Source of the DNA: Faecalicoccus pleomorphus DSM 20574
GTDB taxonomy: Bacteria > Bacillota_I > Bacilli_A > Erysipelotrichales > Erysipelotrichaceae
NCBI RefSeq assembly: GCF_000420345.1
Contig: NZ_ATUT01000002.1
Location: 62,001-126,000, forward strand
Direction of reading: 5' to 3'
Length of the DNA: 64,000 nt
Shown piece by piece: positions 4,611-8,614 of the stretch. The stretch's first letter is position 1, and each line of letters begins with the position of its first letter. The translations under genes and the position numbers were made by a program. Below the pieces are notes generated by a model. That model was given only the letters and a program-made list of their open reading frames with translations, ran no database searches and had not been told where the DNA came from.

Positions 4611-4800
4611 ATTGTTTGAAATCTGTGATAGGATATGGCACAATTAAATTGAACAAATATCAAATTTGGTCATTTTACTTTTTATTTGACTAATTTTAGT
4701 ATATAGTCAGATATAGAAGAGGTCTAAGCTACAATAAGACCCTTCCATTATTTTGAAAGTATGCGTGTTGATGTTTAAACAGAAAAAGAAAGAGGGTAGT

Positions 4801-6675
4801 ATGAAAAAAAGAAAAATCAGTAAATTTTTATTGGCAACAAGCTTAAGTGTTGGTAGCTTTTCCAGCCTTCCTTTTACGGCTCCTACGGTTTATGCAAAAG
4901 AAGAATCCTCTTCCTCCTCCTATGGAGTATTTTTAGTAGACTTTAATAGTGAAACAGTAGGCATGGAGCTTCCGGATGAGGATGATTTTTGGGCTATTTA
5001 CGATGCCTTAGCAGGTCAATTTCCAGCGGGAACTGTTCACGCCGGTGATGAATTTGATGGAGAAGTGGATGTTTCTCATTTGGATAATCCTGTTCCCCTG
5101 CCAACACCTATTCGTACCACATATGTACCAAAGGATGGATTAGGGGTTTGGACATTTACAGGATGGGACATTGATTCTCTTGCCCCGGATGACGATAGTG
5201 GCGCTGCAGTTGGTTTGTGGGCATACCGTCCTTATAGTGAAATGCAAAAAGTGAATGTGACCTATGAGTTCGAGGCGGCAGATGGTACGAGTTTACCATC
5301 GGAAGTATTAGCTTATCTACCTGCTGCAGAAAGCCATGATGTTAATACGGAAGTTACAGCTACACAACCAGCATCCGTTTCCGTTGACGTCAATGGGAAA
5401 AAATGGGTGTTTAAAGGTTATAAAGAAGGAAATACCCAAGTAGCAGCTCAGGATATTGTATTCCACGGTGTTTGGGAACAAGAATCTACAACCTATAAAG
5501 CAAGTTATCGTTTTGAATCCGGAACCGACTCCATGGAACTGCCGGAAGAAGTCAAAGCCCTGCTTCCAAGCGATGACAACGCCTATGAAAACGAAGCCAA
5601 AGTAACGTCCAAGGCGCCAAGCCAGACTTCCGTAGAAGTACAGGATGGAACCTGGAACTTTGTATCGTATGATGAAGCCGAGAAAACAGTGAACCGCGAC
5701 AATGTGGAATTTGTGGGCACCTGGACCTATACGCCAAAAGAATATCATGTGGTTTATCATTTTGGTTCGGGTAGTGATGACTATGATCTTCCACAAGAAG
5801 TTATGGATTTATTACCGGTAGATGCACAGGGATATTCTAATCACGAGGTAGTATCGACTATTTTACCAGTTCAACAAAAGGTTACTGTTGAAAATGGAGA
5901 ATGGGTCTTCAAGGGTTACGATGCTGATACAAAGACCGTTCAAAATGCTAATGTATCTTTCATTGGTACATGGGTGTTTGAAGCGAATAGATATCCGGTT
6001 TCCTATCGATTTGTGTCTTTGACTTCAGGATTAGATTTACCGGAAGAAGTGAATATTCTTCTGCCTTTCGATGAGAAAAACTATGAAGATCAGACGACTG
6101 TGCATGTAAAAGACTTACTGCAAAGACAGGTAAAAGTTGCGAATGGCACCTGGCTATTTGAAGGGTTTGATGCGCAGGAAAAGGTAGTGAATCATGCTGG
6201 TGTGGAATTTGTTGGAACATGGAAATTTGTTGCAGACAACGAAGAGAATCCGGTGTATTACCACGGTCACTATCAGTTTGTTTCAACGGATAGCCAGTAT
6301 AACTTGCCGGATGTGATCTTATCTATGTTACCAAATGACCGCTCTGATTATCGAGATGGAGAAACTGTTCACGCTATCTTGCCGATTGGGCAGAAAGTTG
6401 TACTTGCCAACGGAACTTGGACTTTCTTGGGTTATGATGCTGGCGAAAAAGTCGTTCATGAACAGGATGTAACATTTGTAGGACGCTGGGAATATACACC
6501 GGCATCGACCGAGAAAACTCCTGGTAAAGATCAAGGGCAGCCAACCAAAAAAACATCTGCATCAACAAAAACAAAGCGTGTTAACACAGCTGTAGGAAGT
6601 ATGATGTCATTATGGACTGCATTTGGCAGCCTCTCTGCCATGCTGGCTGTACTTTTGAAGCGTAAGAAGAAATAA
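4801..6675 (+). CDS. Secreted SHIRT-repeat surface protein
   Basis: A 624-residue product. Residues 1-33 form a signal peptide (basic start, hydrophobic core, VYA cleavage site). After a divergent N-terminal unit come five tandem repeats of about 80 residues (about 140-585), each with a YRF-type start, LPEEV, a central LLP, then NGTW-F-GYDA and V-FVGTW. This matches SHIRT-type repeats of Gram-positive adhesins and stalk proteins. A Pro/Thr/Ser/Lys-rich linker leads to VNTAVGS, a hydrophobic segment and KRKKK, shaped like a sortase signal but without LPXTG. Likely a cell-surface adhesin or spacer. The start is the ATG after AGAGGG; a Met 16 codons upstream (4753) lacks a ribosome site. Confidence 0.85.
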   Translation: MKKRKISKFLLATSLSVGSFSSLPFTAPTVYAKEESSSSSYGVFLVDFNSETVGMELPDEDDFWAIYDALAGQFPAGTVHAGDEFDGEVDVSHLDNPVPLPTPIRTTYVPKDGLGVWTFTGWDIDSLAPDDDSGAAVGLWAYRPYSEMQKVNVTYEFEAADGTSLPSEVLAYLPAAESHDVNTEVTATQPASVSVDVNGKKWVFKGYKEGNTQVAAQDIVFHGVWEQESTTYKASYRFESGTDSMELPEEVKALLPSDDNAYENEAKVTSKAPSQTSVEVQDGTWNFVSYDEAEKTVNRDNVEFVGTWTYTPKEYHVVYHFGSGSDDYDLPQEVMDLLPVDAQGYSNHEVVSTILPVQQKVTVENGEWVFKGYDADTKTVQNANVSFIGTWVFEANRYPVSYRFVSLTSGLDLPEEVNILLPFDEKNYEDQTTVHVKDLLQRQVKVANGTWLFEGFDAQEKVVNHAGVEFVGTWKFVADNEENPVYYHGHYQFVSTDSQYNLPDVILSMLPNDRSDYRDGETVHAILPIGQKVVLANGTWTFLGYDAGEKVVHEQDVTFVGRWEYTPASTEKTPGKDQGQPTKKTSASTKTKRVNTAVGSMMSLWTAFGSLSAMLAVLLKRKKK

Positions 6676-6814: not shown

Positions 6815-6868
6815 TTGACATCTGCTTTATGTTAGTCTAAACTAACTATATAGTTAGTAATATCTAAC
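6815..6868 (+). promoter_or_regulatory. Metal-regulated promoter A with four phased half-sites
   Basis: TTGACA (6815-6820), a 17-base spacer and TAAACT (6838-6843). Overlapping and following the -10 are GTTAG (6831), CTAAC (6842), GTTAG (6853) and CTAAC (6864), each exactly 11 bases apart. The middle pair forms the 16-bp perfect palindrome CTAACTATATAGTTAG. Half-sites of this TTAG/CTAA kind are typical of DtxR-family repressors, and such a regulator is encoded at 8243. Confidence 0.75.
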
Positions 6869-6883
6869 AGGAGGTACGTTTTT

Positions 6884-7237
6884 ATGAAATATGTATATGC
6901 TTCCCGGACAGGGAATGTACAAAGCATTGTATCAGATTTGGGTTTAGATGCTTTATGTATTCAATCGGGTGATGAAGTGATGGAAGAGCCATTTATCTTA
7001 TTTACGTATACCGATGGGTATGGCGATATTCCTATGGAAGTTGAGTCTTTTTTGATGGCCAACGGGCAAAATCTGAAAGGTGTTATTGTTTCTGGTGACA
7101 CGAGTTATGGAGAGGCATATTGTCAAGCAGGCGATAAAATTGCGGATGAGTATGGCGTGGAATGTCTGTACAAAGTAGAAAATGCCGGTGAAGCAGCGGA
7201 TATCGAAGCCATACAAGCGATTTTATCCAATGTGTAA
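6884..7237 (+). CDS. NrdI-like flavodoxin
   Basis: A 117-residue flavodoxin-fold protein. YASRTGNVQ near the N-terminus is the FMN phosphate loop, FTYTDGYGDIP is the NrdI-type 50s loop, and SGDTSYGEAYCQAGDKIA matches the 80s loop region. NrdI activates Mn-dependent class Ib ribonucleotide reductase. No nrdE or nrdF lies nearby, so it could also serve as an iron-sparing electron carrier. An AGGAGGT site precedes the ATG. Promoter A carries DtxR-type half-sites, so expression probably rises when iron or manganese is scarce. The gene overlaps the DUF3793 gene by 8 bases. Confidence 0.78.
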   Translation: MKYVYASRTGNVQSIVSDLGLDALCIQSGDEVMEEPFILFTYTDGYGDIPMEVESFLMANGQNLKGVIVSGDTSYGEAYCQAGDKIADEYGVECLYKVENAGEAADIEAIQAILSNV

Positions 7238-7802
7238 AACAGAACAGTATCAATTTGAAGAATTGTTAGCCTATCATTGTGCACCTACGCTCAAGGGGTA
7301 CAAAATAGCGAATATGTTTCATGTATCTAGAACATTGTTTCCTTGTGCCGAGGAAATAATTCTAGAATATAACGAAAAGTTTAAGGCAAAAGGCCTGGCT
7401 TTTCGAATCCTGCAGGCAGAACGACCGCGCATCACATTTTATTTATACTCGATCGACAGTTTTATAAAAATCCTGAAACAAGAAAAAATCCGAGTGTTTT
7501 TAGAACGCCTGGGGTATCCTACACACTCACCCACTGCCTGCCTGGATTTTTTGGAAAAAAGAATGGAAGAAGCGACGTATCCGCATGAAATCGGTATCTT
7601 TTTGGGATATCCGTTAGAAGACGTGCTAGGTTTTATTCAGAATAAACCATGTTGTTGTATGGGAGCCTGGAAGGTCTATGATCAAAATAGTGTTACCCGT
7701 TGCAAGGAATTATTTTCACTCTTTGAATATGTACGAAATCAATTTATTCGAGGTGTAGAAAATGGATGTCGCATTGAACAATTGATGGAAACACAGGCTT
7801 AG
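7230..7802 (+). CDS. DUF3793 family protein
   Basis: A 190-residue soluble protein of the DUF3793 family. Visible family blocks are HCAPTLKGYKIANMF at the N-terminus, the Tyr-rich RITFYLYSI, CLDFLEKRM, and the signature YPHEIGIFLGYPLEDVLGFI, then CCCMGAWKVY near the C-terminus. The function is unknown, although relatives often sit beside flavodoxin and ferrous-iron genes in Clostridia. The ATG at 7230 overlaps the end of the flavodoxin gene by 8 bases and has no ribosome site of its own, so translational coupling is expected. It shares metal-regulated promoter A. The three adjacent Cys suggest, but do not prove, metal or cluster binding. Confidence 0.82.
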   Translation: MCKTEQYQFEELLAYHCAPTLKGYKIANMFHVSRTLFPCAEEIILEYNEKFKAKGLAFRILQAERPRITFYLYSIDSFIKILKQEKIRVFLERLGYPTHSPTACLDFLEKRMEEATYPHEIGIFLGYPLEDVLGFIQNKPCCCMGAWKVYDQNSVTRCKELFSLFEYVRNQFIRGVENGCRIEQLMETQA

Positions 7803-7826: not shown

Positions 7827-7881
7827 TTGACTTTCACAGGAAGTTAGAGTAAGCTAACGTCATCAGTTAGAGGATTATAAC
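7827..7881 (+). promoter_or_regulatory. Metal-regulated promoter B, in front of a non-coding region
   Basis: TTGACT (7827-7832), a 17-base spacer, TAAGCT (7850-7855). GTTAG (7843) and CTAAC (7854) sit at the same place relative to the -10 as in promoters A and C. Further half-sites GTTAG (7866) and ATAAC (7877) follow, shifted by one base. A third copy of this architecture within 2 kb suggests control by the same repressor. Confidence 0.65.
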
Positions 7882-8222
7882 TGATAACTGCCGCGTTTCG
7901 AGATGACTCTCGAAAAGACTATAAAAAGACTGCTATTCATTTTGATTCTAGATATAAAAATCATTTGACTCTTTTATAGGATAAGCAGTCTATGGTCAAA
8001 TGGTGTTTTTCAGGATATTTCCCAGATATCTTGAAAGGATACAACGGGAAACAGTCGTTGTAAAGAAGTCTGAAATTAAGAATTTATCAGCACTCTTGAT
8101 CGTATCTTTCTATGCAGCGCGCATAGGAGCTCTGATTTAAAAATTTCCTCAATATACCTATACCTTACCTTATTTAATTTCTAAGAACGATCAAGGATAG
8201 AAAAGCCCTCAGGGGCTTTTTG
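7862..8222 (+). ncRNA. Candidate structured non-coding RNA or long leader upstream of the DtxR-family gene
   Basis: About 360 bases without any convincing reading frame lie between promoter B and a terminator. Many near-perfect helices occur: TTTCGAGA/TCTCGAAA (7896-7915); GACTAT+AGACTGCT with AGCAGTCT+ATGGTC (7917-7934/7984-7997); an 11-bp stem 8008-8018/8026-8036; TACAACG/CGTTGTA (8040-8062); CTGAAATT/AATTTatCAG (8070-8090); and CTTGATCGT/ACGATCAAG (8095-8103/8187-8195) enclosing CTATGC/GCATAG (8110-8126). It ends in a terminator (8202-8222) just before the regulator ribosome site. It does not resemble tmRNA, RNase P RNA, 6S RNA, T-box or any metal riboswitch I know. It could be a free RNA or an attenuating leader. 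Confidence 0.55.
8202..8222 (+). terminator. Terminator immediately before the DtxR-family gene
   Basis: Stem AAAGCCC/GGGCTTT, loop TCAG, followed by T. The ribosome site of the next gene (AAAGGAG, 8227-8233) begins only five bases later. Either the upstream RNA ends here, or the regulator is expressed by read-through. Confidence 0.8.
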
Positions 8223-8242
8223 TGCGAAAGGAGAATAAAGAA

Positions 8243-8614
8243 ATGCAGGAATTGGGACAATCGTTAGAAGACTACTTGGAAGCTATTTTGATTTTAGAAA
8301 AGCAGTTGGATACTGTGCATAATATTGATATTGCGAGTTATCTGGGTTTCTCAAAATCCAGCGTTTCTCACGCATTAAAGATCTTACAGGCAGACAAGCT
8401 GATTCAGATTCACCGGGATAAATCAGTTAAGCTGACAGGGGAAGGACAAAAAACGGCCCAACATACGTACCAGCGACATGAATTCTTTACCAAAATGCTT
8501 CAACAGATCGGAGTGAATAAGTTTACGGCTGAAGAAGATGCCTGTCGCTTGGAGCATGTCATCAGCGATGAGACGTTTCAGGCAATCAAGAAGTATTATG
8601 AGTTTCATGAATAA
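8243..8614 (+). CDS. DtxR/MntR-family metal-dependent repressor
   Basis: A 123-residue regulator. Residues 1-65 form the winged helix of the DtxR family (SLEDYLEAILIL, then HNIDIASYLGFSKSSVSHALKIL as the helix-turn-helix, then the wing VKLTGEGQKTA). Residues 66-123 form the dimer domain with metal-ligand-type residues in RHEFF and DACRLEHVISDE. It lacks the SH3-like third domain, so it resembles MntR in size (slightly shorter). It likely represses its targets with Fe2+ or Mn2+ bound. The GTG at 8222 lies in the terminator; the ATG at 8243 is 9 bases from AAAGGAG. The phased GTTAG/CTAAC sites nearby are its probable operators. Confidence 0.88.
   Translation: MQELGQSLEDYLEAILILEKQLDTVHNIDIASYLGFSKSSVSHALKILQADKLIQIHRDKSVKLTGEGQKTAQHTYQRHEFFTKMLQQIGVNKFTAEEDACRLEHVISDETFQAIKKYYEFHE

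Follow-up and report, generated by a model that had tools for sequence, protein, structure and literature searches.

A candidate iron-sparing small RNA apparently derived from the 3′ untranslated region of a flavodoxin operon

The locus at 7862–8222 on the forward strand of the window (the whole 64-kb stretch of DNA analyzed here) probably encodes a trans-acting, iron-sparing small RNA that apparently derives from the 3′ end of an mRNA and is here a separate gene. The gene for this predicted RNA of about 360 nt sits between a flavodoxin operon and a metal-sensor gene (dtxR) in this gut-type Firmicute. The RNA probably shuts off two iron-rich proteins in low iron, pyruvate:ferredoxin oxidoreductase (PFOR) and rubrerythrin, because its exposed 3′ loop shows complementarity to the ribosome-binding region of each of the two mRNAs. 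The promoter suggests that a metal-loaded DtxR-family repressor, bound at an operator over the −10 element, would keep the RNA off. In low iron, the RNA would be made together with flavodoxin and Feo, and it would end mostly at an intrinsic terminator with some read-through into the regulator gene. A 9-bp helix in the computed structure presents an unpaired pyrimidine-rich loop that is predicted to pair with the 5′ end and Shine–Dalgarno region of the PFOR mRNA and with the Shine–Dalgarno region of the rubrerythrin mRNA. Pairing would block ribosome entry and repress translation of both mRNAs, so that scarce iron would not be spent on them. The logic fits, since one signal would increase flavodoxin and the uptake of ferrous iron while decreasing two proteins rich in iron.

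The 5′ end of the RNA was placed from its promoter, and the gene call is based on the fold, the promoter, and the terminator. The minimum free energy of 7862–8222 is −94 kcal/mol (z = −4.75), and none of 100 dinucleotide shuffles folded as low. Among pieces of the same length from the window, corrected for G+C content, the fold is in the top 4–5% (11 of 266 pieces were lower), so the fold by itself is no proof that the RNA is functional. The long helices named in the original prediction exist. They are 7917–7934/7984–7997, formed from 7917–7922/7992–7997 and 7927–7934/7984–7991 with a 4-nt bulge between the two parts, 8006–8020/8024–8038, and 8095–8103/8187–8195, which has nine perfect pairs. 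Additional 8-bp hairpins are found at 7862–7885, 7896–7915, and 8040–8062. The structured 5′ body (7886–8062) contains the hairpins 7896–7915, 7917–7997, 8006–8038, and 8040–8062, and the 9-bp helix (8095–8195; mean unpaired probabilities of 0.02 and 0.04 for the two arms) closes a large loop bearing the antisense stretch. An intrinsic terminator with a 9-bp stem (8200–8221; stem 8200–8208/8213–8221) lies ahead of the dtxR ribosome site as originally described, and terminators occupy the same place in two genomes of the same genus (G002 and G003). The expectation of no plausible reading frame was borne out: none of at least 50 aa exists in any of the six frames of 7862–8222, and the frames are broken throughout. 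An Rfam search of the RNA returned nothing at the gathering threshold and nothing near it at a relaxed threshold, consistent with the view that it matches no known RNA class. It is very likely that the RNA gene is real. A 23-codon ATG frame inside the RNA (MVKWCFSGYFPDILKGYNGKQSL, 7991–8062), with AGGA about 10 nt upstream, may encode a small protein or make this a dual-function RNA.

The promoter places the RNA in a small set of genes. The −35 element TTGACT (7827–7832), a 17-bp spacer, and the −10 element TAAGCT (7850–7855) have the same architecture as the promoters at 6815 and 8701. A DtxR/MntR-type operator, GTTAGAGTAAGCTAAC (7843–7858), overlaps the −10 element and is an exact GTTAGNNTANNCTAAC, a motif in window-wide excess over shuffles. 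The second, degenerate operator box, GTTAGAGGATTATAAC (7866–7881), also forms the first RNA hairpin and reproduces the paired-box layout at 6831/6853. The pattern TTGACN{17,19}TAANCTAAC has three matches in the whole 1.99-Mb genome, which are the flavodoxin promoter (6815), the promoter of this RNA (7827), and the feoA promoter (8701), and the reversed-pattern control has none. The original claim that the promoter resembles the two iron-regulated promoters nearby is thereby strengthened. The same operator box is found at the flavodoxin and feoA promoters both in the window genome and in its relatives, where the full pattern marks feoA or the flavodoxin operon; G109 has one further match that precedes neither. 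The RNA is assigned to the local metal regulon because the promoter/operator pattern is common only to the flavodoxin operon, the RNA, and feoA, and repression by an iron-type repressor is the predicted consequence. The presence of feoAAB and flavodoxin in the regulon suggests that the metal is iron rather than manganese.

The 3′ end of the RNA is the part conserved outside the window species. The genomes compared are the window genome (G000), two of the same genus (G002 and G003), and two of another genus (G068 and G109); these five genomes carry the module, and some of them are closely related. The module (8137–8222) consists of the pyrimidine-rich loop and the terminator; its homologue in G002, G003, G068, and G109 is the flavodoxin/DUF3793 operon's 3′ UTR, a conserved mRNA 3′ end. 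These four 3′ UTRs share a pyrimidine-rich stretch with CTATACC and an intrinsic terminator, and three of them contain the GATCAAAGAA element. A profile built without the window sequence finds 8149–8223 in the 64-kb window (E = 6e-5), and a covariance model of the module gave strong scores only at its four source loci among 146 family genomes. The window species has the module behind its own promoter rather than at the 3′ end of the operon mRNA, and the promoter and body ahead of the module were seen only in this species. A further genome, G001 (79% complete), has the PFOR motif described below, and no DUF3793 was found in it. As judged from these sequences, the 3′ end of the RNA is old and shared, and the functional loop appears to be older than the gene. 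The arrangement in the window can be read as an old UTR that about 345 bp of unrelated-looking DNA now separates from its operon.

The gene that follows the module bears on whether the RNA is simply the 5′ UTR of the regulator mRNA, in which read-through of the terminator would set the regulator level and there would be no trans target. In G002 and G003, DUF3793 is followed by only 65–97 nt and then dtxR, and a terminator precedes dtxR there as well. In the window, the terminator lies directly against the ribosome site of dtxR, which has no other conspicuous promoter. G068 and G109 have the same module and terminator, but the next gene is an unrelated one and not dtxR. The body is absent in front of the relatives' dtxR, so the structured leader is not attached to dtxR across species, and no anti-terminator was found. 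A cis-acting leader would also leave the covarying PFOR complementarity unexplained, and we consider it unlikely as the sole account. Of the two alternatives in the original prediction, there is good support for a metal-regulated small RNA with a function like that of RyhB or FsrA; the attenuating leader fails to explain the conserved part because the module and terminator in G068 and G109 are not followed by dtxR. The two roles can coexist, and control of dtxR by read-through is a possible second role of the small RNA.

The 5′ body is an orphan. A blastn search against relatives, plasmids, and phages found no homologue, and neither did a covariance model of 7886–8060 in the 146 family genomes. 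The weight that had been put on secondary structure was misplaced, since this body is without a homologue, and conservation and covariation are found instead in the unpaired loop (8142–8171). The 5′ hairpins are probably a scaffold or protection against a 5′ exonuclease. A decayed tandem copy of the flavodoxin/DUF3793 operon that kept its promoter and 3′ UTR would account for the body as sequence with no function of its own. The stretch 8040–8130 weakly resembles the 3′ coding end of the relatives' DUF3793 and is collinear with it, ahead of the shared 3′ UTR; between 1 and 80 of 1000 shuffles did as well, depending on gap costs. The RNA promoter resembles the flavodoxin promoter. However, profile and translated searches of the body for DUF3793 and flavodoxin found nothing, and the body folds far better than shuffles, which makes a functionless remnant very unlikely. 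Even if this were true of the origin, the antisense loop would stay functional. On balance, we lean toward a new family of iron-sparing small RNAs whose evolution is visible in two steps. In the relatives the family would be represented by an antisense 3′ UTR on the flavodoxin operon mRNA, and in the window species by an independent gene that has an iron-type promoter and an orphan structured 5′ body; its targets, PFOR and rubrerythrin, would covary with it.

The loop was compared to the genome for complementary sites. The antisense block AATTTCCTC (8142–8150) is complementary to GAGGAAATT of the PFOR Shine–Dalgarno region. The seed CCTATACCTTACCTT (8157–8171) is a 15-nt perfect complement of the rubrerythrin ribosome-binding site, and its first 11 nt are a perfect complement of the PFOR leader. 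The seed is computed to be unpaired with a mean probability of 0.88 within the 9-bp helix, giving an accessible stretch complementary to the ribosome-binding regions of two iron-protein mRNAs. A whole-genome search with the seed complement GGTAAGGTATAGG found one exact site besides the RNA itself, the rubrerythrin ribosome-binding site, and two sites with one mismatch, one of which is the PFOR leader. A one-mismatch site ahead of RNase J sits upstream of that gene's likely −10 element and was taken as chance. The energy background consisted of 426 start regions from a 400-kb sample of the window genome plus the window, and some unrelated start regions of this genome reach equally low pairing energies. 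With folding costs included, rubrerythrin ranks first and PFOR fifth of the 426. An antisense pattern search with the relatives' own seeds pointed to no clear set of targets beyond the UTR itself, and targets were therefore examined one gene at a time.

In fermenting gut bacteria, PFOR is a central enzyme rich in iron. The loop is antisense to its leader at GGTATAG, at the 5′ end of the mRNA, and at the Shine–Dalgarno region. GGTATAG directly follows the PFOR −10 element TATAAT in every one of the six genomes from the two genera (G000, G001, G002, G003, G068, and G109). It is absent from six PFOR orthologues of 87–92% identity in module-less genera (G024, G097, G017, G004, G158, and G117), and more distant PFOR genes are also without it at that position. 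The window's genus has CCTATACC in the RNA and GGTATAGG in the PFOR leader; the other genus (G068 and G109) has AACTATACC and GGTATAGTT, respectively. The RNA:PFOR pairing therefore contains two compensatory pairs between the genera (CC:GG to AA:TT). In the second block, CTCCTTATTT pairs with AAATAAGGAG in G003, and AACTTT pairs with AAAGTT beside the Shine–Dalgarno region in G068 and G109. Nearly the whole UTR of G003 pairs with PFOR, in 21 base pairs interrupted by a 4-nt bulge on the mRNA side. Because only five genomes carry the module, the covariation consists of these two base pairs between two genera and the second block.

Pairing energies with the cognate PFOR were −25.9 (G000), −25.1 (G002), −29.3 (G003), −26.4 (G068), and −25.5 kcal/mol (G109), and 12, 2, 0, 1, and 3 of 1000 shuffled RNAs, respectively, were as low. 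These energies were equalled or bettered by 8, 6, 1, 1, and 2 of the 426 start regions in the same order; the PFOR region of the window genome is itself counted wherever it qualifies. The PFOR leaders of module-less genomes gave −12.6 to −19.2 kcal/mol when paired with RNAs from the window's genus; with the G068 and G109 RNAs the range was −16.4 to −22.7 kcal/mol. The expected PFOR start (TATAAT-N4-AAGGTATAGG) lies no more than a few bases from the site of seed-block pairing, and pairing at the extreme 5′ end of an mRNA could instead protect it against a 5′-to-3′ exonuclease and so activate PFOR. This opposite sign is highly improbable. The second block covers the PFOR Shine–Dalgarno region in all five module genomes and the rubrerythrin pairing is on the ribosome-binding site itself, both of which predict repression, and switching on an iron-sulfur enzyme in low iron makes little sense.

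Repression of rubrerythrin is predicted from a 15-nt match between the loop and its ribosome-binding site, located 3 nt from the ATG in the window genome. The protein is identified by NF045767 above the cut-off. Rubrerythrin came out at 2 of the 426 start regions by pairing energy for G000, and none of the 426 was as good as its own rubrerythrin leader for G002. The pairing is absent in G003, G068, and G109. In the window genome, rubrerythrin (L179, G000:C13 near 6600) follows a gene for a PerR/Fur-type regulator, whose stop codon is inside the ribosome-binding region matched by the RNA.

Several metal-sparing small RNAs invite comparison. RyhB is a functional parallel as an iron-sparing small RNA. 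MrsI of mycobacteria is an IdeR-controlled iron small RNA that shares DtxR-family control and an iron-sparing role; it differs in phylum and targets and is set apart on this description, and we know of no sequence relation. IsrR of Staphylococcus is a Fur-controlled iron-sparing small RNA (PMC9410917). Like IsrR, the window RNA has a Firmicute iron-type promoter, an intrinsic terminator, and a single-stranded region, C-rich in IsrR, that is predicted to pair with the Shine–Dalgarno regions of iron-sulfur enzyme mRNAs. Unlike IsrR, it is under DtxR/MntR-type rather than Fur control, carries a single pyrimidine-rich loop, is predicted to target PFOR and rubrerythrin, has no match in Rfam, and apparently originated from the 3′ end of an mRNA. 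FsrA of Bacillus subtilis is also iron-sparing and binds Shine–Dalgarno sequences through a C-rich motif (PMC9410917). The window RNA resembles it in the predicted iron-sparing role and the Shine–Dalgarno-binding motif, whereas FsrA is Fur-controlled with other targets and the window RNA matches no Rfam family. RsaC of Staphylococcus aureus is the manganese-related 3′ UTR of mntABC, released by RNase III, with sodA as its target (PMC9438474). The module in G002, G003, G068, and G109 is likewise a candidate metal-sparing RNA at the 3′ end of a DtxR/MntR-type-regulated operon, whereas in the window species it belongs to a separate gene under a promoter of its own. The RNA is therefore filed as an unrelated, new member of the functional class of metal-sparing small RNAs, outside the IsrR, FsrA, RyhB, RsaC, and MrsI families. 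Searches of an open-access library returned no title or abstract on a small RNA controlling PFOR or on an iron-sparing small RNA in Erysipelotrichaceae. If the proposal is true, the shift of anaerobes from ferredoxin-type to flavodoxin-type metabolism in iron shortage becomes directly testable. So does the way an mRNA 3′ UTR becomes an independent small RNA gene, because both states exist within one genus.

The genes around the RNA add further observations. The regulator gene (8243–8614) belongs to the DtxR/MntR family (PF01325 and PF02742); its best NCBIfam models are MntR, below cut-off, and it could sense manganese. The genome has a second DtxR/MntR paralogue, 57% identical (L069, G000:C7 32437–32793), with its own promoter and no such structured RNA ahead of it; the two regulators may therefore divide the metal roles between them. 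The searched contigs of named relatives contained one distant dtxR only, in Allobaculum sp. Allo2. The NrdI-like flavodoxin gene (6884–7237; PF07972 and TIGR00333) opens the iron-type operon, which in the relatives has the module in its 3′ UTR. The DUF3793 gene (7230–7802; PF12672) overlaps the flavodoxin stop codon, and a terminator scan found no terminator of its own in the window species. The occurrence of both genes in this iron-type operon in two genera points to a role for DUF3793, a domain of unknown function, in low-iron flavodoxin metabolism. Directly upstream of the iron locus, 4753–6675 encodes a large cell-surface-like protein with a C-terminal membrane anchor and several similar repeats of about 70 residues each.
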